A DNA stretch of 64,000 bases. It comes from Halosimplex litoreum (lineage in GTDB: Archaea; Halobacteriota; Halobacteria; Halobacteriales; Haloarculaceae). The notes beneath the pieces are model-generated. The model had not been told where the DNA came from. It ran no database searches and saw only the letters and a list, made by a program, of their open reading frames with translations. Where the stretch lies: positions 3,843,836 through 3,907,835 of the forward strand of contig NZ_CP065856.1 in NCBI RefSeq assembly GCF_016065055.1, in the 5' to 3' direction. This document shows, in pieces, positions 10,866-27,269 of this stretch; the first letter of the stretch is position 1, and the number at the start of each line of letters is the position of its first letter. A program made the position numbers and the translations under genes.

Positions 10866-12941
10866 TCAGTCGTCGCCGCCGACGCGGCCCTGCTCGTCGG
10901 GGATCTCGGCGTGGTCGTAGAAGTACTCGCTCAGTCGGTCGCGCCAGATGCCCGCGTGTTCGACCTGCTCGTCGAAGCGCTCGGCGACGTGACGCCAGCG
11001 TTCGTCGTCGATCTCCCCTTCGAGCGTCCGCCACTCGTCGCGCAGGCGCTGGGTCTCCTCGACGCCCGCGTAGAGGTTGTCGTACAGTGTCTGAACGACG
11101 GTCCGGCCGTCCCCGAGTTCGTGATCCCAGGGCAGGTGATGGAAGAAGAGGAGCAGGTCCTCCGGGCACGATTCGGGGTCGTCGTACAGTTCGGCGAGGG
11201 CTTCGGGATACTGCTGGGCGTAGCCGTTGCCCCGGGAGTTGCGATCCTTGCCGATACCCTCGTCGGTGATGCCGGTGTAGCCGGGCCACTCCTCCGGACC
11301 GGGGTCGTAGTGATTCTCGAGGTAGGCGCTGCCGTTGTACATCATGTGCATCAGGCCGATGCCCCCGGTCGAGTAGTCGACGACCGCCGGCCAGGTCGAG
11401 TGCATGATCTCCGTCACCGTCTCGACCACGTCCGGGTCGGTGCCGAACGTCAGTTTCACCCACTCGTCGGTGATCTCCTCGGTGGTCAGGTCCGGGTCCC
11501 ACGCGAGGCGGCCGTAGCCGTAGAGGTTGGCCTGCGCGAGATAGTGGCCGGTCCAGTTCCTGTCCTCGCCGGGCCCGCCGACCCCGGCCATGCCGGTCCC
11601 CTCGTCGGTGAAGAGGTCCTTGACTTTCTTGCCGTGGCCCTCGGGGTCGGTGTCGAACTCTAAGACCTCCTTCCACATCGGGACGTGGTAGCAGGCGTGG
11701 ACGTGCTGGCCGGTGTACTCGCCGGTGATCTGCAGTTCGAGTCCGAGGTCCGTCTCGGGCATCTGGCCGAAGACCGGCGAGATGGGTTCTCGGGGCTGGA
11801 AGTCGATGGGGCCGTTCTTCACCTGGACGGTGACGCTGTCGTGGAACTCACCGTCGAGCGGCTCGAAGGTGTCGTACTGCTGGACGGCGCGGTCCTTGTG
11901 GCTGCCGTAGACGAACGCGCGCCACCAGACGCGACCGCCGTGGGGTTCGAGCGCCCGCGCGAGGACGTTCGCGCCGTCGACGTGGTCGGCGTCGTAGTTG
12001 TACGGCCCGGGCTGGCCCTCGGAGTCGGCCTTGACGAGGAACCCGCCGAAGTCGGGGATCAGGTCGTACACTTCCTCGGCCTTCTCGGCCCACCACTGCT
12101 CGACTTCGGGGTCGTTCGGGTCCGAGGTGTCGAGGTCGCCGATCTTCTCCGGCGCGCCGAAGTTGATCGAGAGGTACGTCTGGATGCCGTACCGGCGGAA
12201 CGTCGAGGCGAGCCCGGTGAGCTTCTCCAGGTACCGCGTCTCCAGCAGGCGCCACCCCTCTAACTCTTCCATCGCCCCGTTGCCTTCCTCGCGCCCGGGA
12301 ATCCCCGTGTTGACGTTGTTGAGGACGATGCCGTTGATCCCGACGGAGGCGAGCAGGCGCGCGTAGTCGCGGTAGCGCTCGCGCAGGTCCGGCAGGCGCT
12401 CGAAGTCGAAGATCGACTGGCCGGCGTAGCCCCGCTCGACGGACCCGCGGAAGGGGTTGTCCCAGTGGTTGATCAGCCGGTCCGGGGAGGTGGGCTCCTC
12501 CTCGATATGCACGTCCGCGATGGGTTCGCGCATCGCCAGCAGCCGCAGGAGGTGGAAGGTGCCGTAGACGAGCCCCCGATCCGAAGAAGCGGTGACGACC
12601 AGCGTGTCGACCCCCTCCCACTCGCCGGTCGTGACGACGTATCCCCCGTCGTCGAGGTCGGCGATCCGGTCCTCGTCGACGGCCTGAGCCACCACGTCCA
12701 TGTCGCCGGGTGTCCCGACGGCGAGGAAGCCGTCGACGGTGCGAGGCGGGTGCTGCCAGAGGTGTGGGTCGCGTCCGAGCATGCCTTCGAGGCCGCGTCG
12801 GAGCTCCTCGCGGACGGCGCCGAGTTCGCGCGACTCCTCGGCGACGTAGGCGTGGGTGCAGAGTCGCCGGTACGACTCGCGACGGTCCCCCTCGGGGACC
12901 TCGTCGTACCGGAGCCAGCAGTCGTCGTAATCCGGTTGCAT
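10866..12941 (-). CDS. GH67 alpha-glucuronidase
   Basis: A 691-residue enzyme expected to remove (4-O-methyl-)glucuronic acid from the non-reducing end of short aldouronic acids. It has no signal peptide, so it acts in the cytoplasm after uptake. Family motifs are VKADSEGQPGP, KNGPIDFQPREP and LELQITGEY. By spacing against characterised GH67 enzymes the acid is E308 and the paired bases are D380 and E408. The length is normal for the family. A TATA-like GTTTTAGT on the minus strand about 27 nt before the ATG gives it its own leaderless promoter, although it follows the GH10-like gene at 13018 on the same strand after only 76 bp. Confidence 0.94.
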   Translation of the reverse strand: MQPDYDDCWLRYDEVPEGDRRESYRRLCTHAYVAEESRELGAVREELRRGLEGMLGRDPHLWQHPPRTVDGFLAVGTPGDMDVVAQAVDEDRIADLDDGGYVVTTGEWEGVDTLVVTASSDRGLVYGTFHLLRLLAMREPIADVHIEEEPTSPDRLINHWDNPFRGSVERGYAGQSIFDFERLPDLRERYRDYARLLASVGINGIVLNNVNTGIPGREEGNGAMEELEGWRLLETRYLEKLTGLASTFRRYGIQTYLSINFGAPEKIGDLDTSDPNDPEVEQWWAEKAEEVYDLIPDFGGFLVKADSEGQPGPYNYDADHVDGANVLARALEPHGGRVWWRAFVYGSHKDRAVQQYDTFEPLDGEFHDSVTVQVKNGPIDFQPREPISPVFGQMPETDLGLELQITGEYTGQHVHACYHVPMWKEVLEFDTDPEGHGKKVKDLFTDEGTGMAGVGGPGEDRNWTGHYLAQANLYGYGRLAWDPDLTTEEITDEWVKLTFGTDPDVVETVTEIMHSTWPAVVDYSTGGIGLMHMMYNGSAYLENHYDPGPEEWPGYTGITDEGIGKDRNSRGNGYAQQYPEALAELYDDPESCPEDLLLFFHHLPWDHELGDGRTVVQTLYDNLYAGVEETQRLRDEWRTLEGEIDDERWRHVAERFDEQVEHAGIWRDRLSEYFYDHAEIPDEQGRVGGDD

Positions 12942-13017: not shown

Positions 13018-16000
13018 TCAGGAGACGGTGACCTCGACCTCGTCGGTGGTCGAGTAACCGATGTTGTCCGTCGCGGTCAGGGAGACGGTGTAGGTGCCGG
13101 TCGAGTCGTAGCGGTGTTCGGCCCACCAGCCCTCGGCGCTCTCGTCGTCACCGAACTCCCACTCCAGATCGGTGATCCAGCGGTTCTCGCCGGAGGTGTC
13201 CTCGACGGCGAAGGTGAGTCGCTCGTCGACCGCCGCCTCGGTGGCGCTGGGCTTGGCCTCCGCGAGGACGCCCTCCAGCTCGGAGACCCAGACGGTGAGT
13301 CCGTCCGTCGTGGTCTCGCCGTCGCTGTTCGTGGCGGTCAGTTCGACCGTGTAGATACCCGGCTCCTCGTAGCGGTGGTCGTTCCAGTAGCCCGACGCGG
13401 TCGTCCCGTCGTCGAACGACCACTCCAGGTCGTCGATGTGGGCGCCCGACCCGCTGGTGTCGATCACCTGGAACTCCAGTCGGTCGCCGACGGTGCTCTG
13501 GGTCGCGCTGGGCTGCAGGCGCGCGATCAGGTCCTCGTCGCTCCTGGTGACCTCGAAGCTGAGGTCGGTCGCCGTCGTCACGCCCGAGGCGTTGGTCGCA
13601 GACACGTTCAGGGTGTTCCGTCCGCGGGAGACGATCTCCCCGCCCTCGAAGGTGTCGCCGTTGAGCGTGACCGACTGCGAGGCGACGCTCGACTCGTCGT
13701 CGGCGATACGCACGCCGGCGGCGCGGGGCGCCTCGTAGGTCGCGCCGGCCTGCAGGTCGTCGATCACGATCCCCGGACCGGTCGGATCGGTGGCGTCCAG
13801 CGAGACGGCCTCCGAGTAGACGTCGACCGCGCCGACCACCATCGCGTAGCCCTGCGGCCCCTGCGGGATTGTGACCCGGAGGTACTCGGCGTCGTCGGGC
13901 AGCCCGCCGACCTGCGAGTAGGTCCAGAAGGCGTAGTAGCCGTTCGAGTCGTTCGGCGGCTCGACGACGGTCGGCCCTACCTCGACGGGCTCGAAGGTCT
14001 CGCCGTCGCTGGAGACCGCGAACGACAGGTCCGAATCGGTCGCGTTGTTGTTGACGTAGGCGTCGACCTCGAAGGCGGCCACGCCGTCGGCGAGGCGGTA
14101 CGTGACCGAGCCCGCCTGACCGCCCTCGGACTTCTGGAAGAAGCTGTCGTCGCCCTGGCGCGAGGTGTAGCCCGCCGCGAAGACGTTGTCGTTGGAGTCG
14201 GCGACCGACAGGTCGCTCGCGTCGTCTGCCAGCGCCGGGTCGCCCAGGTCCGCGCTCTCGCGGGCCGCGAAGCGCGCACTCGCCGCCGCGGTGTCGCCGT
14301 AGGCCGCGACCGTCACCGTCACCGTCGCGGTCCCCTCGCCGGCGACCGAGACGACGCCGTCCTCGTCGATCACGAGCACGTCCTTGTCGGCGCTCTCGAA
14401 GGACAGCGCCCCCTCGGGGACCGGTAGCTCGTACCCGCTCTCGGAGGTGAGCGCCACGCCGAGGTCGACGGTGTCGTCGCCGACGAGCGTGTGCCCGTCC
14501 ACGTCGAGGTCGACGTCGGCGATCGAAGCCGTCTCGATCTGAACCTCGACGGAGGCGCCGTCGTCGGTGAACTCGACGGTCTCGGCGCCGATCCGCTGGC
14601 CGTCCCGAGCGACGACCTCGTACGTGCCCTCGAAGCCGCGACCGCTGTAGACGCCGTCGGCGTCGGCGGTGCCGGACGCCTCGGTCCACCACTCGTCGAA
14701 CAGCAGCCGGCGGTACTCCTCGCCGTGGGGCCGGATCGTCCAGTCGCTGTCGTAGTAGGCGCCGGTCGGCCGCCAGTGTTCGTCCTGCCAGAAGCCCCAC
14801 GAGACGACGCCCTCGACGGCCTCGTGGCTGAACGCCGCCGTCAACACGTCGCGGAGGTAGTCACGCTGGGCCTGGACCTCGCTCTCGTTCGAGCGGTCGT
14901 TGATCTGGATGTCGAACTCGGTGAGCTGGAGCGGGACGCCGAACTCGGCGAACCGGTCGAACCGGTCGAGGAGCTCGGTCGGCGGCGTCAGGCTGCCGAG
15001 GCCGAAGTGGGACATGAAGCCGATCCCCTCGACGCCGGCGTCGTTGCCGGTGAGCCACTCGATGTGGTCGTAGTAGTCGTCGGTAAGCTGGTCGCCCGCG
15101 ACGATGTTCAGCTCGTTGACGTACATCTGCGATGACGGGTCGGCCTCGTTGGCCGTCTCCCACCAGTCGAGGACGTACTCCTGGCCGATGTCCTGCCAGA
15201 TCTCGGGGTAGAACAACGGGTGGTTGTGCATGTCCCACTCGGGGAGGTCGCCTTCGAACTCGTTCGCTCGATCGCGGATCAGGCGTTTGACTTCCTCGTT
15301 TATCTCGGTCGCCGACAGCGAGTCGTCGATGCCCATCCAGTCGTAGGTCGACCAGACCAGCGCGTGGCCCCGCGTCGGAATGTCGCGTTCGAGCAGCCAG
15401 TCGATGGCCGCCCGGGTGTTGTCCTTGTCGAGGCCGTCGCCGTACTCCCCCTCCCAGGCCGGCACCTTCAGGCCGTTCTCCGGGACGGCCTTGTTGAAGT
15501 TGTCGAGGAACGTCTCGCGGTAGGTCTCCGAGCCGTCGGGCCACTGGTTGACCGCGATGGCCGACCCCCAGTCGTACTCGTGAGCCTGCATCGCGACCTC
15601 GACCTCGGCGTCGGAGACCGGGTCGCCGTCCGCGTCGAGGACGGTCACCTCGAAGTCGGTCTTCCGCAGTTCGTCGATCCGATCCTGGGCCGCCGAACGC
15701 CACTCGGCGTCTTCGGCCCGACCGGGGTACTCGTAGTCGAAGGCGGTCGTCGGCAGGTCGCCGACGCCGACTTCCGTGCCGTAGTCGAGCAGGGCGACAC
15801 CACCGAAGTCGACGGTCTGCTGGCCGAAGCCGGTCCAGAACTCCACGTACGGGATATACTCGGAGCCGTCGGGTTTGGCGCCCACCTCGATCGGGAAGTA
15901 GAAACGGCGCCACTCACTGCCCAGGGTGACCCGCTCGGTGCCCTCGATGAACGAGTCCGAGTAGCCCGTCTCGCCGTCGGGGTCGGTGAACTGGTACTTG

Positions 16001-16467
16001 AACTGCGCCTGGACCTCGACGGCACCCTCGGCGGCGGCCGCGTTCGGGCCGCGCATGTACGCCACCGCGAGCAGCACGTCGCCCTCCGAGAAGTCCCGGT
16101 CGGTGATGTTGGACTTGTACGTGTAAGAGTAGCCGTTGCTCGCGTCTTCCTCGATCGCGACGCGGTCGCCGACGGTGATAGGCACGTCGGCGTTCACGTC
16201 GAGCTGCGTCTCGGTTCCCTGGTCGCCGCCCTGCAGCGAGAACGCCTCGAGCGTGGCCGCCTCGGTGTCACCGTAGACGAACGTCCCTTCGGGCAGCCCT
16301 TCCTCGTCCATCAACCGGGACTGCAACCCCTGGTGATACGCGTCGGCCGCTGTCTCTCCACCCGATGCCACACCTGTGCCGAGGACCCCCGCAGCGCTGG
16401 CCGCAGCCAGCGACTGCAGGAACGTCCGCCGGTCGCTCCCGCTTTCGCGGGTCTCGTTGCCATCCAT
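13018..16467 (-). CDS. Large secreted GH10-family protein with His in place of the acid/base Glu
   Basis: A 1149-residue multidomain exported protein. In order: a Tat signal (SDRRTFLQ, R13-R14); one copy of the module shared by the neighbouring GH10 proteins (about 42-240); a GH10 barrel (about 258-600); an Ig-like domain (about 650-735); a second beta-sandwich region (about 745-890); and two PKD domains (about 980-1062 and 1068-1149). The nucleophile E517 (QLTEFD) is kept, but where the other paralogues have WE-x-x-NE this one reads WDMHNH, putting H416 at the acid/base position. It may use another acid, have another substrate, or only bind glycan. The ATG at 16467 is the start that places the Tat motif at the usual depth. 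Confidence 0.88.
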   Translation of the reverse strand: MDGNETRESGSDRRTFLQSLAAASAAGVLGTGVASGGETAADAYHQGLQSRLMDEEGLPEGTFVYGDTEAATLEAFSLQGGDQGTETQLDVNADVPITVGDRVAIEEDASNGYSYTYKSNITDRDFSEGDVLLAVAYMRGPNAAAAEGAVEVQAQFKYQFTDPDGETGYSDSFIEGTERVTLGSEWRRFYFPIEVGAKPDGSEYIPYVEFWTGFGQQTVDFGGVALLDYGTEVGVGDLPTTAFDYEYPGRAEDAEWRSAAQDRIDELRKTDFEVTVLDADGDPVSDAEVEVAMQAHEYDWGSAIAVNQWPDGSETYRETFLDNFNKAVPENGLKVPAWEGEYGDGLDKDNTRAAIDWLLERDIPTRGHALVWSTYDWMGIDDSLSATEINEEVKRLIRDRANEFEGDLPEWDMHNHPLFYPEIWQDIGQEYVLDWWETANEADPSSQMYVNELNIVAGDQLTDDYYDHIEWLTGNDAGVEGIGFMSHFGLGSLTPPTELLDRFDRFAEFGVPLQLTEFDIQINDRSNESEVQAQRDYLRDVLTAAFSHEAVEGVVSWGFWQDEHWRPTGAYYDSDWTIRPHGEEYRRLLFDEWWTEASGTADADGVYSGRGFEGTYEVVARDGQRIGAETVEFTDDGASVEVQIETASIADVDLDVDGHTLVGDDTVDLGVALTSESGYELPVPEGALSFESADKDVLVIDEDGVVSVAGEGTATVTVTVAAYGDTAAASARFAARESADLGDPALADDASDLSVADSNDNVFAAGYTSRQGDDSFFQKSEGGQAGSVTYRLADGVAAFEVDAYVNNNATDSDLSFAVSSDGETFEPVEVGPTVVEPPNDSNGYYAFWTYSQVGGLPDDAEYLRVTIPQGPQGYAMVVGAVDVYSEAVSLDATDPTGPGIVIDDLQAGATYEAPRAAGVRIADDESSVASQSVTLNGDTFEGGEIVSRGRNTLNVSATNASGVTTATDLSFEVTRSDEDLIARLQPSATQSTVGDRLEFQVIDTSGSGAHIDDLEWSFDDGTTASGYWNDHRYEEPGIYTVELTATNSDGETTTDGLTVWVSELEGVLAEAKPSATEAAVDERLTFAVEDTSGENRWITDLEWEFGDDESAEGWWAEHRYDSTGTYTVSLTATDNIGYSTTDEVEVTVS

Positions 16468-16498
16468 GTACGAAACAACACGTAATACGTTCGCCACC

Positions 16499-16518
16499 AT
16501 ATACAAAATATTTTTGTG
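16499..16518 (-). promoter_or_regulatory. AT-rich core promoter of the large GH10-like gene
   Basis: A 20-bp AT-rich block containing ACAAAA-TAT-TTTTGT, an inverted repeat with 6-bp arms. On the minus strand it includes TATTTTGTATAT about 32 nt before the ATG at 16467. It lies in the divergent region shared with the lipoprotein gene at 16635, which has its own TATA-like GTTTTAGT at about 16604. Confidence 0.45.
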
Positions 16519-16634: not shown

Positions 16635-17558
16635 ATGAACGCACCGACAGAAGACGGACGCGGAGGCGACGACTCCCGGGCGACGACCCGTCGCGCGCTG
16701 CTCGGATCGCTGGGGATCGCGGGGGTGGCGGGCTGTCTCGGTCTCGGGGGTAGCGGGACGGGTGAGGAACCGTCCGGCGGTGGCTTCCAGACCGTCGGAC
16801 CCGACGGGGGGCCGGAGCCGACGCGGACCGCAGAGGTGACACCGACGACCGCCGCCGAGCGGGACCGGACGGCGACGGAGACGCCGGCTCGGTCGACCGA
16901 GACACCGAGCGACGACTCGTCGACGGCCACCGCTCGGCCCGGGACCGAGACGAGCGCCGACTGGCCGTCGGTCGAGGACCCCTACTACAGCGCGCTACAG
17001 GACGACCTCGCGGCGATGGGCGTGTCGCCCGGGGAGTTCGTCTACGCCGACGACGAGGAGACCGCGCTGGGGAAGTTCGAGATCTGGTCGGACCTCGCGG
17101 AGACCTCGTCGCTCTCGGTGACCGGCGACCGGGACTTCTCAGCGGCCCGACGCGTCGAAGTGACGGAGCAACCGGACAACCCCTGGGACGTGACGATGAA
17201 CGGCCCGGTCAACAATCGGTCTGTCGCAGAGGGGGACGTGTTGCTCGGCGTCGTCCATCTGCGGAGCCCAGTGTCGAGTCCGACGGATTCGACGGTCCAG
17301 TTCATCGCCAAGGATCAGGACAACACCGCGACGAACATGGTCGCAACCCAGCCGCGGGTCACCCCACCGACCGAGTGGACCCGCTACTACGTCCCGATGC
17401 AGTGGAGCTACGACTCCGAAGCGGGCACCTGGTGGTGGGAGCTGTTCCACGGCTTCGGCGTGCAGACGACCGACGTGGGCGGCCTCGCGCTCGTCGACTT
17501 CGACCGGTCGGTGAAAGTCGAGGACCTCCCGCGAGGACCGGTCACCGACGGGGACTGA
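16635..17558 (+). CDS. Tat lipoprotein consisting of a lone GH10-associated beta-rich module
   Basis: A 307-residue protein with no catalytic domain. R19-R20 plus lipobox VAGC (C34) mark a Tat-exported lipoprotein. A Thr/Pro/Glu-rich spacer (about 40-108) leads to a single module (about 113-300), starting DPYYSAL and ending near VGGLALVDFD and VEDLPRGP. The same module stands in front of the GH10 domain in the genes at 19283 and 21525, once in 13018 and three times in 23937. Its aromatic-rich motifs (TEWTRYYVP, AGTWWWELF) resemble glycan-binding beta-sandwich modules, so a role in holding xylan at the cell surface is likely but unproved. The next gene is a GH10 lipoprotein lacking the module. 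Confidence 0.72.
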   Translation: MNAPTEDGRGGDDSRATTRRALLGSLGIAGVAGCLGLGGSGTGEEPSGGGFQTVGPDGGPEPTRTAEVTPTTAAERDRTATETPARSTETPSDDSSTATARPGTETSADWPSVEDPYYSALQDDLAAMGVSPGEFVYADDEETALGKFEIWSDLAETSSLSVTGDRDFSAARRVEVTEQPDNPWDVTMNGPVNNRSVAEGDVLLGVVHLRSPVSSPTDSTVQFIAKDQDNTATNMVATQPRVTPPTEWTRYYVPMQWSYDSEAGTWWWELFHGFGVQTTDVGGLALVDFDRSVKVEDLPRGPVTDGD

Positions 17559-17656
17559 GACCACGGAACGCCGGTGACGCTTCGGGAGCTCCGCGGCGGC
17601 GTTCGCACGGACACCGAACCCTTTTACCAGCATTTCCCCTTGGACGATGCACGCGC

Positions 17657-19174
17657 ATGTCATCCGAAGACACAGACGGTTCGGGTGCGGACGGGGCGGT
17701 GGACTCTTCGGTCGATCGGCGGTCGCTGCTTGGCGCGCTCGCAGCCGCGGGACTCGCCGGCTGTCCGAGCGACGGCGGCGACGGCACGGCGACCGAGGGG
17801 GGGACGACGCCGACACCGACGCCCACTCCGGACGACGGTGAGGCGACGCCCGAAACGACCGACTCTCCGAGCGGGACCGACACAGTCACCGAGCCGGACC
17901 CGACCGTCGAACGCCGGATCCGCGACCACCGAACGAGCGACCTCACGGTCGAGGTGACCGACGGGTCCGGCGCCACGGTCGCGGACGCCGAGGTCGAGGT
18001 CGCGATGCAGGCCCACGAGTTCGGCTTCGGAACCGCGGTCAACGCGGGAACGCTGATCGAGGAGTCGAGCGAGGGCGACGAGTACCGCGAGTACATCCCG
18101 GAGCTGTTCAACAAGGCCGTCATCGAGAACCAGATGAAGTGGCGCTTCTGGGAGTCGGACCCGGAGCTTGCCGACGCGGCGGTCGAGTGGCTGCTCGACC
18201 AGGGCCTGGACGTGCGCGGACACGTCTGTATCTGGGGGCGCTCCGACGTGGGCGCCATCCCTTCCGACGTCTTGACCGCGATCGAAGACGGTGACGCCGA
18301 GACGATCCGCGAGCGGTCGATGGCTCACATCGAGGATATCGTCACCCACTACGGCGACGACGTCACAGAGTGGGAGGTCGTCAACGAGGCGATGCACGCC
18401 TACCAGCTCCAGTTGGGTGTCTACGGCGACCAGATCGATTCCGAGGAGCCCTGGACCGGTGAGATCGTCCCCTGGCGGTCACCGCTGCTGGCCGAGTGGT
18501 ACAGCAAGGCCGACGAAGTCCGTCGAGAGAACGACCTCGACATCGGTCTCGGCGTCAACGACTTCAACCAGTTCGGCTACAGCTACACCGACGGCCGCTA
18601 TCAGTCCCAGATCGAACACCTCAACGACACCGCGGTGCAGCTCGACACCGTCGGGCTGCAGGCCCACGTCGGCGCTCGCTCAGGCGAGTTCAACACCAAC
18701 TCCGACCCCGACGAGCGGGTCAGCGCCAGCCGCGTCGCCGAGGAGATCGACACGTGGGCCGGCTACGGGGCGAGTGTGAAGATCACCGAGTTCGACACCT
18801 ACGCCGGCGACGACTGGGCGGACGACGAACAGCGAGCGCAGGTGCTGGAGAACTACCTCCGGGGCGCCTTCTCCCATCCCGACGTGACGGACTTTCTCAT
18901 GTGGGGGTTCTGGGACGGTCGTCACTGGCAGGAGGAGGCGCCGTTGTTCTACGAGGACTGGTCGGAGAAACCCGCCTTCGACGTGTGGACCGGGCTCGTC
19001 TACGACGAGTGGTGGACCGAGGAGACGGGCACCACCGACGAGGCGGGCGCGTTCTCGACGACCGGGTTCCACGGCGAGTACGAGGTCACCGCGACCGTCG
19101 ACGGCACCGAGGTCACCGAGACGGTCACTCTCTCCGACGGCGGCGCGGTCGTCGAACTCACACCGAACGCGTAG
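17657..19174 (+). CDS. GH10 endo-1,4-beta-xylanase, Tat lipoprotein
   Basis: A 505-residue surface-anchored xylanase. R21-R22 and lipobox LAGC (C36) indicate Tat export and lipid attachment. A Thr/Pro-rich spacer (about 40-82) precedes the small beta-strand region (85-120) and the GH10 barrel, with acid/base E244 (WEVVNE) and nucleophile E378 (ITEFD). It has neither the N-terminal module of its neighbours nor any C-terminal binding domain. A TATA-like CTTTTACC at 17621-17628 puts the transcript start a few bases before the ATG at 17657; another ATG 10 bases upstream is out of frame. The short tail after the barrel (TGFHGEYEVTATVDG) is shared with the next two paralogues. Confidence 0.93.
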   Translation: MSSEDTDGSGADGAVDSSVDRRSLLGALAAAGLAGCPSDGGDGTATEGGTTPTPTPTPDDGEATPETTDSPSGTDTVTEPDPTVERRIRDHRTSDLTVEVTDGSGATVADAEVEVAMQAHEFGFGTAVNAGTLIEESSEGDEYREYIPELFNKAVIENQMKWRFWESDPELADAAVEWLLDQGLDVRGHVCIWGRSDVGAIPSDVLTAIEDGDAETIRERSMAHIEDIVTHYGDDVTEWEVVNEAMHAYQLQLGVYGDQIDSEEPWTGEIVPWRSPLLAEWYSKADEVRRENDLDIGLGVNDFNQFGYSYTDGRYQSQIEHLNDTAVQLDTVGLQAHVGARSGEFNTNSDPDERVSASRVAEEIDTWAGYGASVKITEFDTYAGDDWADDEQRAQVLENYLRGAFSHPDVTDFLMWGFWDGRHWQEEAPLFYEDWSEKPAFDVWTGLVYDEWWTEETGTTDEAGAFSTTGFHGEYEVTATVDGTEVTETVTLSDGGAVVELTPNA

Positions 19175-19282
19175 CGGTGCGGTGTCGCTCGCCGCTCGCG
19201 CTCACGAGTCTGCGTCCGCGACCAGTGTCACTTCGAATGTAAATCCTTTTTACCGGAACTCGCACTGGTAGGAGTCACGTCG

Positions 19283-21391
19283 ATGGTAGACGATCACGTT
19301 CGCGGTTCTGAAAGCGGTGAGAACCCGGCACTCGGCCGGCGGTCGCTACTGGGCGCGCTCGCTGCGGCCGGACTGGCGGGGTGTCCGAGCGGCGGTGCGA
19401 ACCCGACAACGGAGGCGCCGGACGGCGGTGGTGGGGCCGGCGGTGCCCCGGCGACGCCGTCGGGGACGCCCGCGACCGTCCCCTCGGGGTGGCCCGAGAC
19501 GCGGGACCCCTACTACGGGGCCCTCGCGAGCACGCTGGGCGGCGAGATGGGGCTTCCTGGGGGGGAGTTCGTCTACGCGAACGACGAGGCGGGCGCGTCG
19601 GCCGCCTTCGGCGTCGGGGTCGAAGCGGCCGAGGCTACCGAGATCGAGGTGGGCGACGCACAGCCGTTCGACTCGGCGGTTCGCGTCGAGGTCGCCGAGG
19701 AGACCGAGAACGTCTGGGACGTGACGATGATGGGGACGGCGACCGACACTGCAGTCGAGAGCGGGGACGTGTTGCTCGGCGTCGTGTATCTGCGCGGCCC
19801 GGAATCGAGCGAGTCCGAGTCGACCGTCCAGTTCGTCGCCAAGGACGAGGACAACCTCGGCACGAACATGGTGCGGTCGACGCCGGAGGTCCAGCCCCCC
19901 GCCGGGTGGACCCGTTACTACGTCCCGATCCAGTTCGACTACGACGCCGAGGCCGGCACCTGGCGGACGGAGCTGTTCCTCGGATACGGGCCCCAGACCG
20001 TCGATATCGGCGGCATCGCGCTCGTCGATTTCGGCGCCGACGTCGCCGTCGAGGACCTCCCCAGCGGCCCGGCCGACGAGGTCCGGGACGGAGGGACCGA
20101 TGGCGGGACCGCAGACGGCGACTGGGAGGCCGCGGCCGACGAGCGTATCGCCGAGCACCGGACGAGCGATCTAACCGTAGAGGTGGTCGACGCCGACGGC
20201 GCGGCCATCACCGACGCCGAGGTCGAGGCCGCGATGCAGGCCCACGAGTTCGGCTTCGGCACCGCGGTCAGCGCCGACTTCCTGACCGAGGAGTCCGAGG
20301 ACGCCGACACCTACCGCGAACACGTCAGCGATCTGTTCGACCTCGCGGTGCTGGGCAACCACCACAAGTGGCGCTTCTGGGAGGAGAACCGGGCGCTCTC
20401 GGACGCTGCGACCGACTGGCTCGAGAGCGAGGGGCTGGACATCCGCGGCCACGTCTGCCTGTGGTCCGACGTGTCTGCGTGGTCCGTACCGCCCGACGTG
20501 GTGCGGGCGATGGGGGTCCAGTGGGAGGAAAACGGCGTCACCGACCCCGACCTCGACCCCGAGTACGTCCGCGAGCGAACGCTGGAACACGTCCCCGCGA
20601 TCATCGACTACTACGGCGACCGGATCACCGAGTGGGAAGTCGCCAACGAGATCGTCCACAAGCCGGGACTGATCCAGGCGGCCAACGGCGTCGCGGCGAC
20701 CGACGACGCGACGCTCGACGACGTCGACCTCGTCGAGTCGCCGATCCTCGCCGAGTGGTACGCCGCCGCTCGCGACGCCGCTCCCGAGGGGATGCCACTG
20801 GGCGTCAACGACTACAACACGCTCTCGGGGCCGTACGAGTCGACCCGGGACGACTACGAGCGACAGATCGAGTTCCTCGCCGACGCCGAGGCGGGACTGG
20901 ACTTCGCCGGCCTCCAGTGTCACTTCAATCGTGAGTCGTCGCTGTCGCCGGCGGCGGTGAAGGCCGGACTGGACCGCTACGCCGAGACGGGCGTGCGTCT
21001 GCGGATCACCGAGTTCGACATGGCCGACGAGAACTGGGACGAGGCGGACAAGGCGGTCTTCTTCCGGCAGTTCCTCAAGATCGCCTTCAGCCACCCGGCG
21101 GTCGACGACTTCCTCGTCTGGGGCATCTACAGCCCCAATCACTGGCGTGACGACGCGCCCTTCTTCGCCGACGGCTGGGAAGAGAAACCCGCACTCGAGG
21201 AGTACCGTAGTCTGGTGTTCGACGAGTGGTGGACCGAGGCGTCGGGGCGGACGGACGACGAGGGGACGTTCTCGACGACCGGATTCCAGGGAGCGTACGA
21301 AGTCACCGCGACGATAGACGGAACCGAAGTCACCGAGACGGTGACCCTCTCCGACGGCGGCGCGACCGTCGAACTCGCGCCGAGGGAGTAG
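19283..21391 (+). CDS. GH10 endo-1,4-beta-xylanase with N-terminal module, Tat lipoprotein
   Basis: A 702-residue paralogue of the flanking genes. R19-R20 and lipobox LAGC (C34) mark a Tat lipoprotein. A spacer is followed by one shared module (about 73-262), then the beta-strand region (about 281-320) and the GH10 barrel, with acid/base E456 (WEVANE) and nucleophile E577 (ITEFD). In effect it combines the preceding two proteins (16635 and 17657) into one chain. A TATA-like CTTTTTACC at 19246-19254 lies about 30 nt before the start. The similar promoter spacing of each tandem gene suggests separate transcription units rather than one operon. Confidence 0.93.
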   Translation: MVDDHVRGSESGENPALGRRSLLGALAAAGLAGCPSGGANPTTEAPDGGGGAGGAPATPSGTPATVPSGWPETRDPYYGALASTLGGEMGLPGGEFVYANDEAGASAAFGVGVEAAEATEIEVGDAQPFDSAVRVEVAEETENVWDVTMMGTATDTAVESGDVLLGVVYLRGPESSESESTVQFVAKDEDNLGTNMVRSTPEVQPPAGWTRYYVPIQFDYDAEAGTWRTELFLGYGPQTVDIGGIALVDFGADVAVEDLPSGPADEVRDGGTDGGTADGDWEAAADERIAEHRTSDLTVEVVDADGAAITDAEVEAAMQAHEFGFGTAVSADFLTEESEDADTYREHVSDLFDLAVLGNHHKWRFWEENRALSDAATDWLESEGLDIRGHVCLWSDVSAWSVPPDVVRAMGVQWEENGVTDPDLDPEYVRERTLEHVPAIIDYYGDRITEWEVANEIVHKPGLIQAANGVAATDDATLDDVDLVESPILAEWYAAARDAAPEGMPLGVNDYNTLSGPYESTRDDYERQIEFLADAEAGLDFAGLQCHFNRESSLSPAAVKAGLDRYAETGVRLRITEFDMADENWDEADKAVFFRQFLKIAFSHPAVDDFLVWGIYSPNHWRDDAPFFADGWEEKPALEEYRSLVFDEWWTEASGRTDDEGTFSTTGFQGAYEVTATIDGTEVTETVTLSDGGATVELAPRE

Positions 21392-21524
21392 CCCCCGGTC
21401 GATCCGAACCGGAACACCGCTTTACCGTCCCCTCGTTCTCTCGTGATCGTTGGTAGCGATTCGCAATACCTGTCTCGAAAACAAACGTTTTTCAACAGGT
21501 ATCGGTCTCGTATGAGCCAGATAC

Positions 21525-23633
21525 ATGCCAGAAGCCAACGACGGGTCGGGTGAGGCGGAGGGTGCGAACGATGGAGAGAACGGGGCGCTCGCGCGCCGAT
21601 CGCTGCTGGGGACGCTCGCCGCGGCGGGTATCGCGGGCTGTTCGTCGATCGGCGGTGGCGGTTCGACGCCGACGGACACCGAGACGCCGGAGCCGACGCC
21701 GACGGGCACGCCGCATCCGGACGGGACGCCGGCGGACGTGCCGCCGGGGTGGCCGACGGTGCGGGACCCCTACTACGGGGAACTCGCGTCGACGCTCGGG
21801 GACCAGGGCCTCCCGGGCGGGGAGTTCTGCTACGGGACCAGCGAGGCGGAAGCGGTGTCGGCGTTCTCGGTGCAGTCGAACGTTGGCGTGGTCGAGCCGC
21901 TGGACGTCGCCGACGAACTACCGTTCTCTTCGGCGCGTCGAGTGATCGTCGAGGAGTCGACGGAGAACCCGTGGAACGTGACGATGAAGGGGACCGTCCC
22001 CGACCGCGCCGTCGCCCAGGGCGACGTGCTGCTGGGCGTGTTCTACCTGCGCGGTCCCGAGGACAGCGAATCCACGCCGACGCTGCAGTTCGTCGCCAAA
22101 GACGAGGACAACGCGAGCACGAACATGGTTCGCGGGGTCCAACAGGCCGAGCCAGCCGACGAGTGGATCCGCTACTACGTCCCGATCCAGTTCGACTACG
22201 ACGCCGAGGCCGGTACCTGGTGGACCGAGCTGTTCCTCGGCTTCGGCCCCCAGACGATCGACATCGGCGGCGTCGCGCTGATCGACTTCGACCAGAACAT
22301 CTCCGTCAGCAACCTCCCCAGCGGGCCGGCGAGCCAGCCGAGCAGCGACGACGGCGCCGACGACTGGGAGGCGGCCGCCGACGAGCGAATCGCCGAGCAC
22401 CGGACGAGCGAGTTGACCGTCGAGGTGACCGACGCCGACGGCCAGCCGGTCGAGGCCGCGTCGGTCGACGTGGCCATGCAGGAACACGAGTTCGGCTTCG
22501 GCGCCGGGGTCGACGGCGCGTATCTCCTGAACGAGACGAGCCAGGGCGACCCCTACCGGGAGTACGTCTCGGAGCTGTTCAACACCGCGACGCTGACCAA
22601 CCACCACAAGTGGCGCTTCTGGGAGCAGGAGAAGCACATCTCCGACGGCGCGACCCAGTGGCTCCTGGGCGAGGGTCTCGACGTGCGCGGTCACGTCTGC
22701 CTCTACGCCGACGTGTCCTCCTTCGCCGTCCCGCCCGACGTCGTCGGAGCCATGGGACGCACCTGGGAGGACGGCGGCGTCACCGACCCCGAACTCGACC
22801 CGGAGTACGTCCGCGAGCAGACGCTCTCACACACAGGGGACATCGTCGACTACTACGGCGAGGACGTCCTCGAGTGGGAGGTCGTCAACGAGCTCATGCA
22901 CTCGCCGGGATTCGTCCAGGCGATCAACGGCGTGGCGGCGACCGAGGACGCCTCGCTCGACGACGTCGACCCCGTCGAGGCGCCGATCCTGCGGGAGTGG
23001 TTCGCAGCCGCCCGCGAGGCCGCCCCCGAGGGGATGCCCCTGGCGATCAACGACTTCAACGTCCTCGCCGGCCCCTACGAGGCGGACCGGGCGCGCTACG
23101 AGCGACAGATCCAGTTCCTCGCCGACTCGGAAGCGGGGCTGGACGCTGTCGGCATGGAGTGTCACTTCAGCCAGGACGAGACGCTCACGCCCGAGGAGAT
23201 CATGGACGGGCTGGACCGCTACGCACAGTACGACGTCTCGCTGCGGATCACGGAGTTCGACATGGCCGACGACGCCTGGAACGAGTCGAAGAAAGGCCAG
23301 TTCTTCCGGCGGTTCCTCAAGACCGTCTTCAGCCACCCCGCCGTCGAACAGTTCCTCGTCTGGGGGATCAACGACGCCAATCACTGGCAGGGCGACGCTC
23401 CCTTCTTCACCGCGAGCTGGGCCGAGAAGCCCCCGCTCACCGAGTACCGGAGCCTGGTGTTCGACGAGTGGTGGACCGATACCGAAGCCGAGACCGACGG
23501 TGACGGGTCCGTCTCGACGACTGGGTTCCACGGCGAGTACGAGGTCACCGTGACCGTCGACGGCACCGAGATCACCGAGACGGTGGCCCTCTCGGACGGC
23601 GGAACCACCGTCGAGCTCTCGCCCGACGAGTAG
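21525..23633 (+). CDS. GH10 endo-1,4-beta-xylanase with N-terminal module, Tat lipoprotein (second copy)
   Basis: A 702-residue protein, collinear with the preceding gene over its full length and clearly a tandem duplicate. R24-R25, lipobox IAGC (C39), shared module (about 80-268), beta-strand region (about 281-320) and GH10 barrel with acid/base E456 (WEVVNE) and nucleophile E577 (ITEFD). The signal region and spacer have diverged most. A TATA-like CGTTTTTCAA at about 21486 precedes the start by some 35 nt. An out-of-frame ATG lies 13 bases upstream of the chosen start, which is kept because it gives the Tat motif its usual setting. A 21-bp repeat array follows the stop codon. Confidence 0.93.
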   Translation: MPEANDGSGEAEGANDGENGALARRSLLGTLAAAGIAGCSSIGGGGSTPTDTETPEPTPTGTPHPDGTPADVPPGWPTVRDPYYGELASTLGDQGLPGGEFCYGTSEAEAVSAFSVQSNVGVVEPLDVADELPFSSARRVIVEESTENPWNVTMKGTVPDRAVAQGDVLLGVFYLRGPEDSESTPTLQFVAKDEDNASTNMVRGVQQAEPADEWIRYYVPIQFDYDAEAGTWWTELFLGFGPQTIDIGGVALIDFDQNISVSNLPSGPASQPSSDDGADDWEAAADERIAEHRTSELTVEVTDADGQPVEAASVDVAMQEHEFGFGAGVDGAYLLNETSQGDPYREYVSELFNTATLTNHHKWRFWEQEKHISDGATQWLLGEGLDVRGHVCLYADVSSFAVPPDVVGAMGRTWEDGGVTDPELDPEYVREQTLSHTGDIVDYYGEDVLEWEVVNELMHSPGFVQAINGVAATEDASLDDVDPVEAPILREWFAAAREAAPEGMPLAINDFNVLAGPYEADRARYERQIQFLADSEAGLDAVGMECHFSQDETLTPEEIMDGLDRYAQYDVSLRITEFDMADDAWNESKKGQFFRRFLKTVFSHPAVEQFLVWGINDANHWQGDAPFFTASWAEKPPLTEYRSLVFDEWWTDTEAETDGDGSVSTTGFHGEYEVTVTVDGTEITETVALSDGGTTVELSPDE

Positions 23634-23739
23634 CCCGGCGCTCGCCCGACACGGTCCCGCGTTCCTCCGACTCGACCCGACGTTCGCTCGAGCCGATCCA
23701 GCGTTCGATCGGGCCGACTCGGCGTTCGCGCGCCGTCCA
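23634..23739. repeat. Five degenerate 21-bp tandem repeats
   Basis: Directly after the xylanase stop codon come units starting at 23634 (22 bp), 23656, 23677, 23698 and 23719 (21 bp each). They share a core like GCGTTCGCTCG followed by GCCGA. The period appears in the minus-strand translation as a clear 7-residue rhythm. The core (CGTTC plus a CGA about 10 bp on) resembles that of the array at 4556-4702. Confidence 0.65.
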
Positions 23740-23898
23740 CGCGCACCGAATATCGGCCGACAGATCCCGTCGATCCGGCGGTTCGGATCGGGTTCGAGGT
23801 CCCGTGAACTGCCGCGAACCCGGGGATCCGGCAACCGTCTCCGACAATTCTGACAACGGGATCGGAAGTATCTCCAGTTTTCAGTATGTTTTAGGAAT

Positions 23899-23915
23899 AT
23901 TTATGACGCATAAAT
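23899..23915 (+). promoter_or_regulatory. Palindrome overlapping the TATA region of the 1110-residue xylanase gene
   Basis: ATTTATG-ACG-CATAAAT is a perfect inverted repeat with 7-bp arms. Its left arm is part of AATATTTATG, the same 10-mer found in the promoter of the first GH11 gene (5111-5120). A protein bound here would block TBP access. The ATG follows about 22 nt after the palindrome. Confidence 0.4.
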
Positions 23916-23936
23916 TGCAGAGATCCGGGTGCAACT

Positions 23937-26900
23937 ATGCGAGAGTCTGACAGAGGCGGTCGTGAGGACGACCGATTCAGGGTGGGCCGTCGACCGTTCC
24001 TCCAGTCGATCGGAGCGGCCGGCGCCGCGGGTGGTATCGCCAGCGCAACAGCGGGCGGGGTCAGCGCGGACACGCCCGATTCGTGGGCGTCGGGCGGTGA
24101 CTCATACTATTCGACGCTCGTCGACGACCTCCAGAACGGAGAGGGGCTGCCGCCGGCGTCGTTCGAGTTCGCCGACACCGAGTCGGCCGCCTGGGACACG
24201 CTGTTCGCACAGGCCGGCTCGGACGGCCAGTACGGGACCGTCGAATCCATCGACGTGAGCGGCGACTCGGTGCCGTTCTCCGAGGCGCGTCGGATCGACG
24301 TGACCGACGCGCCGGACGCGAACTACCCGGTGCAGCTCCGCGGCGACCTCACGCGGGACGTTTCCGCGGGCGACACGCTACTCGCGGTCGCGTACCTCCG
24401 GTCGTCGTCCGACAGCCCACAGTCGGAGTTTTACGCCGTCGATAGCGGCGGGTTCGGGAACGCGTCGGTCGGCAACGGGTCGCCGACGATCGGCTCGGAG
24501 TGGGAACGGCACTACTTCCCGATCGAGATCGGTGCCGACACCACGGCCGACTCCTCGGACCTCTACGTCCAGTGGCAGTTCGGCTTCAAACAGCAGACCG
24601 TCGACGTCGGTGGGGTGGCGCTGCTCGACTTCGGGACGAACGCCGAGTTCGACCAGCTACCGTCCGGTGTCGTAGAGTCGTCCGGCTCGTCGGGGTCGTA
24701 CTACGACACGCTGACCGGCGACCTGTCGGCGCTGAACCTCCCCGACCCCGGGTTCGTCTATAGCGACACAGAGTCGGGGACGTGGAGCTCCTACGAGTTC
24801 GGTGTCGGCGAGTACGGAACTACCGAAAGCCTCGACGTGAGCGGCGATTCGGTCCCGTTCTCGCAAGCGTCGCGCGTGTCGATCAACGGCACACAGAGCA
24901 ACGGCTACAACGCGAACCTTCGAGGTGACGTGAGCGGGATGGCCGTAGAACAGGGCGACGTGTTCCTCGGCGTGGCGTACCTGCGCGCCCCCGACGGCGA
25001 CGCGCAGGTCACCTACTCCGCACAGGAGAGCGCCAGTACGTCGTACAACAACTGGGCGGAGTTCACTAGCCCCTCGATCGGCTCGGAGTGGGAACGATTC
25101 TACTTCCCGATCCAGTACGGTACCGGCGACGACGCCGGCAACTGGTGGACGGAGTTCTGGCTGGCGTACAACGAGCAGACCGTCGACGTCGGCGGGCTCG
25201 CGCTGCTGGACTACTCCGATACCGACGTAGCGGTCGGCGACCTTCCTGCCGGCGCGGCGAGTGAGATCGGGACTGGGGGCGGCGGACCGGAAGAGTGGCC
25301 CCAGACCGACGACCCGTACTACTCGGGGCTGATCGACTACCTCCAAGAGCGCCAACTCGACCCCGGACGGTTCGTCTACGCGAACAACGAGACCGACGCC
25401 TTCGCCGGGTTCGAACTCGCCGGCGGTGAGACGGACAAGGCCACCCGCTCCAGCCTGGATGTCGGCGACGGCGTTCCGTTCTCGGAGGCGACCCGGATCG
25501 ACGTCACCGAATCTGGGACGAACGCCTACAGCATCAACCTCAAGAACTTCGTCAACGACGAAGGTGTCTCCAGCGGCGACGTCCTCCTCGGCGTCGCGTA
25601 CCTCCGCACGCCGGACGAGGAGAACGCGCAGGTGACGTACAAGGTCAGCGAGAACACAAACTTTGCCAACTACGTCACGAAGCCGAACCCGCCGGTCACC
25701 AACGAGTGGCAGCGGTTCTTCTTCCCCGTCGCGTTCGACAGCGGCTACGAAGCGGGCAACTGGTGGACGGAGATCTGGGTCGGTGCACAGGTCCAGACAG
25801 TCGACATCGGCGGGCTCGCGCTGTTCACCTTCGAGGGGAACAACTCTCTGGAGGCCTTGCCGGAGTGGGAGCAATCGCCCGCCGACGGCTGGGAGGAAGA
25901 AGCAGACGCTCGCATCCAGGACCACCGGACGGCCGAGATGGCGGTCGACGTCGTCGACGAGAACGGCGACCCGGTCGAGGGCGCCGAGGTGTCCGTCTCG
26001 ATGCAGGAACACGAGTTCAAGTTCGGGGCCATGACCAACGCGCCTCAGATAGCGAACACGGAGGAGGGCGACCCCTACCGCGAGAACCGCAAGGAGCTGT
26101 TCAACGCGGGTGTCCTCGAGAACTACCACAAGTGGGACTTCTGGGAGGGCGGCCAGGACACCGCCGACGCGGCCGTCGAGTGGATGGAGGCCCAGGACTG
26201 GTACATCCGCGGCCACGTCGCGCTGTGGGGGAGCGTCAGCTCCGCTGCCGTCCCCGACGACGTCGTCGACGCGATGGCCTGGGACAGCGACGCCGGCGAA
26301 GCCGTCCCCAGCGAGGCCGACTCGCAGTACGTCCGGGACGAGACCATCGCCCACGTCGAGGACATCGTCAGCTACTACGGCGACCGCATCGACGAATGGG
26401 AAGTTATCAACGAGCTTATCCCCCAGCCCGGCTTCGCCCGTGCCATCCACGGCGCCGACGTGAATCCGCCCGAGGCACCGATCCTCGGCGAGTGGTTCGC
26501 GACCGCCCAGGAGGCTGGCCCCGACGGCCAGCCGCTGGGTATCAACGACTACAACACCATCGAAGGGCCCTACAGTGGCCGCCGAGATCAGTACCAGACC
26601 CAGATCGAGACGGTTCAGAACACCGAGGCAGGGCTGGACTTCGTCGGCCTACAGAGTCACTTCAGCGAGAGCTCCTCGCTACTGCCCTCCCAGACGATGT
26701 CCGCGCTCGACAGCTACGCGGAGTACGACGTCCCGATCCGCATCACCGAGTTCGACATGTCCGACGAGAACTGGCCCGAGTCGGAGAAGGCCGACTTCTT
26801 CTACCAGTTCCTGAAGACGGTCTTCAGCCATCCGTCGGTCGAGCAATTCGTCGTCTGGGGCCTGATCGACACGCTGCACTGGCGCGACGACGCGCCGTTC

Positions 26901-27269
26901 TACGCGGCGGGTTGGGAGGAGAAACCGGCGCTCGACCGGTACCGCGACCTCGTGTTCGACCAGTGGTGGACCGAGGAATCGGGAACGACCGACTCGGAGG
27001 GTCGGTTCACGACGAACGCGTTCAAAGGCGAGTACGAGGTAACCGTCACCCACGACGGCGAGACGGTTACTAGGTCCGCGACACTCTCGGACGACGGCGC
27101 GACGGTATCGGTCGCGACGAACCTCTCGCCAGTCGTACAGGAATACGACAGCAACGGCAACAGTGCGGTAGAAGTGAGAGAGCTCGGTCGCGCAGCCACC
27201 GACTTCGCCCGTGGCGATCTCACCATCAGCGAGCTCTCGGAGATCGCGAGACTGTTCGCGTCGTCCTGA
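23937..27269 (+). CDS. GH10 endo-1,4-beta-xylanase with three N-terminal modules and a dockerin-like tail
   Basis: A 1110-residue exported protein. A Tat signal (VGRRPFLQ, R18-R19, to about 45) without a lipobox Cys is followed by three copies of the shared module (about 50-245, 250-440 and 454-645), the beta-strand region (about 651-695) and a GH10 barrel, with acid/base E826 (WEVINE) and nucleophile E938 (ITEFD). The last 45 residues (EYDSNGNSAVEVRELGRA, then a second helix) resemble the half-EF-hand, dockerin-like tails seen on some haloarchaeal secreted proteins. The triple module suggests avid binding to insoluble xylan. This closes the tandem run of xylanase genes. Confidence 0.92.
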   Translation: MRESDRGGREDDRFRVGRRPFLQSIGAAGAAGGIASATAGGVSADTPDSWASGGDSYYSTLVDDLQNGEGLPPASFEFADTESAAWDTLFAQAGSDGQYGTVESIDVSGDSVPFSEARRIDVTDAPDANYPVQLRGDLTRDVSAGDTLLAVAYLRSSSDSPQSEFYAVDSGGFGNASVGNGSPTIGSEWERHYFPIEIGADTTADSSDLYVQWQFGFKQQTVDVGGVALLDFGTNAEFDQLPSGVVESSGSSGSYYDTLTGDLSALNLPDPGFVYSDTESGTWSSYEFGVGEYGTTESLDVSGDSVPFSQASRVSINGTQSNGYNANLRGDVSGMAVEQGDVFLGVAYLRAPDGDAQVTYSAQESASTSYNNWAEFTSPSIGSEWERFYFPIQYGTGDDAGNWWTEFWLAYNEQTVDVGGLALLDYSDTDVAVGDLPAGAASEIGTGGGGPEEWPQTDDPYYSGLIDYLQERQLDPGRFVYANNETDAFAGFELAGGETDKATRSSLDVGDGVPFSEATRIDVTESGTNAYSINLKNFVNDEGVSSGDVLLGVAYLRTPDEENAQVTYKVSENTNFANYVTKPNPPVTNEWQRFFFPVAFDSGYEAGNWWTEIWVGAQVQTVDIGGLALFTFEGNNSLEALPEWEQSPADGWEEEADARIQDHRTAEMAVDVVDENGDPVEGAEVSVSMQEHEFKFGAMTNAPQIANTEEGDPYRENRKELFNAGVLENYHKWDFWEGGQDTADAAVEWMEAQDWYIRGHVALWGSVSSAAVPDDVVDAMAWDSDAGEAVPSEADSQYVRDETIAHVEDIVSYYGDRIDEWEVINELIPQPGFARAIHGADVNPPEAPILGEWFATAQEAGPDGQPLGINDYNTIEGPYSGRRDQYQTQIETVQNTEAGLDFVGLQSHFSESSSLLPSQTMSALDSYAEYDVPIRITEFDMSDENWPESEKADFFYQFLKTVFSHPSVEQFVVWGLIDTLHWRDDAPFYAAGWEEKPALDRYRDLVFDQWWTEESGTTDSEGRFTTNAFKGEYEVTVTHDGETVTRSATLSDDGATVSVATNLSPVVQEYDSNGNSAVEVRELGRAATDFARGDLTISELSEIARLFASS

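Follow-up and report, generated by a model that had tools for sequence, protein, structure and literature searches.

A module of about 190 residues that recurs beside the xylanase genes of Halosimplex litoreum is, in our judgement, with high likelihood a haloarchaeal branch of the family CBM85 with a CBM4/CBM22-like fold, holding glucuronoxylan, and perhaps other beta-1,4-glycans, by GH10 at the cell surface, with a stand-alone form that would tether the substrate. Membership in CBM85 is very probable and comes through the published dbCAN label of one homologous protein, whereas ligand binding, its specificity and the tethering role are what we infer. Translation and alignment of the window, i.e., the whole stretch of 64,000 nucleotides that was analysed and to which all positions refer, place seven copies of the module in five Tat-exported proteins, distributed as the earlier note had proposed: one each in the proteins starting at 13018, 16635, 19283 and 21525, and three in the protein starting at 23937. 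Every pair of copies aligns almost end to end, with 30-64% identity and BLAST E-values of 1e-24 to 1e-89, a similarity far beyond chance, and a search of the entire 4.16-Mb chromosome recovered these seven copies and no eighth. The features concerned are the following:

10866..12941, minus strand: GH67 alpha-glucuronidase; a similar gene also lies by the module-GH10 gene of Natronoglomus mannanivorans
13018..16506, minus strand: module, GH10-like domain and Ig-like/PKD repeats, 1162 aa, His in place of the acid/base Glu
15220..15222, minus strand: codon of His429 at the GH10 acid/base position, WDMHNHP (versus WDxxNE), nucleophile Glu in LTEFD kept
15709..16362, minus strand: module copy E
16635..17558, plus strand: stand-alone module protein, 307 aa, with Tat motif RR and lipobox (AGC), Thr/Ser-rich spacer, one module and no catalytic domain
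16959..17555, plus strand: module copy A
17657..19174, plus strand: GH10 Tat-lipoprotein without module, neighbour of copy A
19283..21391, plus strand: module and GH10 lipoprotein, catalytic Glu pair WEVANE / ITEFD present
19487..20122, plus strand: module copy B
21525..23633, plus strand: module and GH10 lipoprotein, WEVVNE / ITEFD
21747..22364, plus strand: module copy C, the modelled copy
23937..27269, plus strand: three tandem modules and GH10, 1110 aa, WEVINE / ITEFD
24081..24689, plus strand: module copy D1
24678..25292, plus strand: module copy D2
25293..25886, plus strand: module copy D3

Copy E lies on the minus strand, outside the interval previously given for the repeat, 16635-25860. 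Likewise, the description of the carriers as five GH10-linked proteins holds for the four that contain GH10 (Pfam PF00331), whereas the 16635 protein, for which Pfam has no match, only adjoins a GH10 gene. Across the seven copies 24 columns are invariant, and 12 remain so in 36 homologues; most of the motifs quoted in the earlier note fall among them, but DPYY varies at D and P, and AG-x-WW-x-E fails in copies B, D1 and E. The copies are under purifying selection, with dN/dS of 0.19-0.28 against Halosimplex orthologues; at the upper end stands the 16635 protein, 84% identical to its orthologue in H. carlsbadense with dN/dS 0.28. Given this value and the mere 98 bp that separate its gene from the GH10 gene downstream at 17657, we reject decay of a GH10 gene as the origin of the stand-alone copy A. 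We also reject the view that places the module within the GH10 barrel, on which the earlier idea of glycan binding would have foundered, since a nearly complete Pfam GH10 domain lies downstream of the module in the four carriers that have one, and the module is also found free of GH10.

The module sits in a glucuronoxylan-degradation island that encodes GH11, GH11-CBM6, GH10-CBM6, the GH67 alpha-glucuronidase, GH3 and an extracellular solute-binding protein; CBM6 is present in other proteins of the window and absent from the module. With the gene content as observed, we infer the order of events. Surface-tethered modules would hold glucuronoxylan, GH10 and GH11 would cut the polymer so held, and the oligosaccharides would be imported, with GH67 and GH3 completing their breakdown; tandem copies may raise avidity, and the stand-alone lipoprotein may retain the polymer at the membrane, with no cutting of its own.

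The name of the family comes from Natronoglomus mannanivorans AArc-m2/3/4, in which dbCAN annotation gave protein 2297 (1,035 aa) as 'GH10/2 x CBM85' and protein 2295 (428 aa) as 'GH11' (PMC10963439). The N. mannanivorans gene at L024:4182-7289 encodes a protein of exactly 1,035 aa, made up of two modules and GH10, beside a 428-aa GH11-like protein, and because it agrees with 2297 in size, in the number of modules and in having GH11 next to it, the module has evidently already been called CBM85. The founder of this family is AMOR_GH10A, a GH10 xylanase from a hot-vent metagenome (Fredriksen et al. 2019; PMC7527525, PMC11122601), which consists of a module and GH10 and reaches its best identity, 42%, with a Verrucomicrobia protein; its binding domain, without likeness to any database entry, is reported to bind xylan and glucans (PMC7527525), and the ligands given for the family are cellulose, glucuronoxylan, beta-1,3-1,4-glucan and glucomannan (PMC11122601). 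The haloarchaeal module is likewise attached to a divergent GH10 domain, has bacterial homologues with the same order, and is unlike other CBMs in standard searches; by description, the present locus differs from the founder in being haloarchaeal and in its seven copies, tandem triplet and stand-alone lipoprotein. Thus, the earlier opinion that the module could not be assigned to a CBM family is superseded, the closest annotated haloarchaeal homologue bearing the name of a family described in 2019, and most of the supposed novelty is lost, even though Pfam, NCBIfam and a first search of the PDB came back empty.

A more elaborate proposal, in which a functionally separate haloarchaeal subfamily has membrane-tethered stand-alone modules that act as surface glycan-binding proteins and capture xylan for the neighbouring GH10, tandem copies that recognise differing xylan decorations, and a partner clade with a His active site, can be entertained only tentatively. 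It is unlikely that the module is instead a new family within the CBM4/CBM22 superfamily, distinct from CBM85, and that the Natronoglomus label is a marginal hit. Such a reading would accommodate the lack of any curated Pfam or NCBIfam hit for the module and the separation of the haloarchaeal copies, as a single supported clade, from most of the bacterial copies; however, the annotation retained accessory domains at 0.5 coverage by dbCAN HMM (PMC10963439) and assigned two domains to the protein that has two modules, and bacterial relatives with CBM85-like architecture match the same profile.

Evidence on the module's fold comes from an AlphaFold2 model of copy C, built on a 36-sequence alignment (pLDDT 92.4, pTM 0.90). 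Foldseek comparison of this model with the PDB gave as best matches the CBM4 of CelK (E 1.4e-7), CBM4-2 of Rhodothermus Xyn10A (several entries, best E 1.6e-7), the CBM4 of CbhA and the CBM22 of Xyn10C, so that the module is predicted to be a CBM4/CBM22-type jelly-roll beta-sandwich; structure prediction, the check that had been asked for, thereby agrees with the beta-rich character first read from the sequence. Profile searches against the PDB point the same way: the 36-sequence profile matches CBM4-2 of the Rhodothermus xylanase (3jxs, E 8e-4), and a bacterial profile matches the CBM4 of laminarinase 16A (1gui, E 2.9e-5) as well as CBM4-2 and the CelK/CbhA modules, while a profile of the seven copies retrieved nothing. 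Pfam CBM6, CBM35 and CBM9 have no match in the module, and PF02018 (CBM_4_9; curated cut-off 25.9 bits) has none in the window modules or the genome; among 13 bacterial relatives, 4 match it weakly, below the threshold (best E 0.0048). Because profile-profile comparison with eight PF02018 domains detected no similarity, the relation to CBM4 is remote, and we do not claim membership in that family.

A close characterised likeness is CBM4-2 of Rhodothermus marinus Xyn10A (1K42, 2Y64, 3JXS), which shares the fold of the model (Foldseek E ~1e-7, TM 0.59-0.70), binds xylan and has a GH10 partner; the module, too, is GH10-linked, matches it remotely by profile and keeps the Trp69 position. Unlike CBM4-2, to which it is ~19% identical, the module has an extra N-terminal helix (residues 8-19). 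The CBM22 of Paenibacillus Xyn10C (4XUO, 4XUP) is of the same fold class, stands in tandem N-terminal to GH10 and binds xylan, but shows no sequence-profile match to the module and a TM of ~0.5-0.6. Trp69 of CBM4-2, which presumably stacks on the ligand, corresponds in the HMM alignment to W76 of copy C, and this column holds W, Y or F in 35 of the 36 modules. By contrast, the column of CBM4-2 Phe110 is not aromatic in the modules, residue 110 being critical in CBM4-2 (PMC2783032). The conserved aromatics that had been suggested to contact glycan fare differently: most of those in the motifs of the earlier note (EW-x-RYY) fall on CBM4-2 core strands, and W76, which had not been singled out, appears from the alignment to be the likelier ligand aromatic. 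Given that the fold of CBM85 is listed as 'unknown' (PMC11122601) and that the solved relatives found by sequence are remote CBM4s only, the confident model constitutes a testable structural hypothesis, with a CBM4-like groove and Trp76.

Several relatives of the module occur in other contexts. In two genomes of the same family it is flanked by a GH43 domain and by a dockerin-like C-terminal repeat (L032 in G389, by Pfam; L034 in G285, by reading the sequence). Stand-alone proteins in which an acidic spacer leads to a PGF-CTERM-like tail, which scores just below the curated cut-off, are encoded in G336 (L153:7182-8285), where a co-directional two-module GH10 gene lies directly downstream, and in Natronoglomus (L022:84-1256), where the reading frame has no evident signal peptide at its start. 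Stand-alone module proteins thus have two surface anchors, the Tat lipobox of the protein at 16635-17558 and this tail. Since the module swaps its catalytic partner and exists alone, it behaves like a CBM, and the expectation that it works by itself is upheld. Together with the predicted fold, the remote match to a xylan-binding CBM4 and the glucuronoxylan island, these forms favour the earlier suggestion that it probably binds glycan, most simply xylan. A purely structural role, as a ligand-free beta-sandwich that stabilises or spaces the GH10 barrel, is very unlikely: most of the invariant residues (EW-R, QT-D-GG, GD..L) do lie on core strands of the CBM4 fold, and the neighbouring GH10 protein at 17657 has no module, but the module also occurs without GH10 and on GH43, keeps an aromatic at the CBM4-2 ligand position, and is found in up to four tandem copies in one protein. 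That it binds the cell surface, e.g., an S-layer glycan, and fixes the enzymes on the cell instead of on substrate is most improbable, for although every carrier is exported and a lipobox or PGF-CTERM-like tail marks several as surface proteins, such carriers already own an anchor, the same module is present in bacteria, and the CBM85 founder is reported to bind plant glycans (PMC7527525, PMC11122601).

Homologues of the module were found in Halosimplex, Salinarchaeum, Halovivax, Natronorubrum, Natronoglomus, Halomarina and one Planctomycetota bacterium, the closest to copy C being those of Halosimplex species (87-90% identity). The module is present in 5 of 394 sampled genomes of the host's phylum, with one to eight copies per positive genome. 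More distant copies occur in 7 of 294 sampled genomes of the phylum of the Planctomycetota bacterium, mostly 5' of GH10 in the order module - linker - GH10, with a similar linker; the profile that found them contains the Planctomycetota copy L026, of which the match of the more distant ones is independent. The hhalign comparison of haloarchaeal with bacterial modules is partly circular, one sequence being common to both sets (L026 = L044). The tree gathers all haloarchaeal modules into a single supported clade, to which L026 is sister, and for the most part paralogues A, B, C, D1, D2, D3 and E are older than the Halosimplex species; the bacterial branches are long and the deep order is unsure. 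Most simply, the module would have been obtained from bacteria once and then duplicated. The long GH10 protein (23937-27269; L016, L017, L018) varies among Halosimplex species in how many tandem modules it has, with three here and in H. pelagicum and four in H. carlsbadense and H. salinum, which points to recent tandem duplication or loss.

The His at the acid/base position of the 13018 protein recurs in Halosimplex pelagicum (L017), Salinarchaeum (L020), Halomarina (L025), G211 (L030), G389 (L036) and, among bacteria, L026 and, by alignment, G678 (L126), and all these His-type GH10 proteins carry the same N-terminal module. Judged by sequence, they are a conserved module-bearing GH10 clade lacking the usual acid/base residue and spanning Archaea and Bacteria. 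In a bacterial module-bearing GH10-like protein (L132, G568), neither catalytic Glu is aligned (WDVVADP; Ala at the nucleophile column), making it a candidate non-catalytic relative.

Very probably, then, we are dealing with an already described CBM family that is unusually expanded in this archaeon, mainly a new and rich occurrence of a known tool. Apparently undescribed are the haloarchaeal radiation itself (1-8 copies per genome), the surface-anchored stand-alone forms, the GH43 fusion and the His-type GH10 clade; the stand-alone form and the His-type partner clade are the parts worth following. The locus illustrates how haloarchaea probably took up and multiplied a putative xylan-binding module of bacterial type, the enzyme-free surface form of which may resemble the surface glycan-binding proteins of gut Bacteroidetes.
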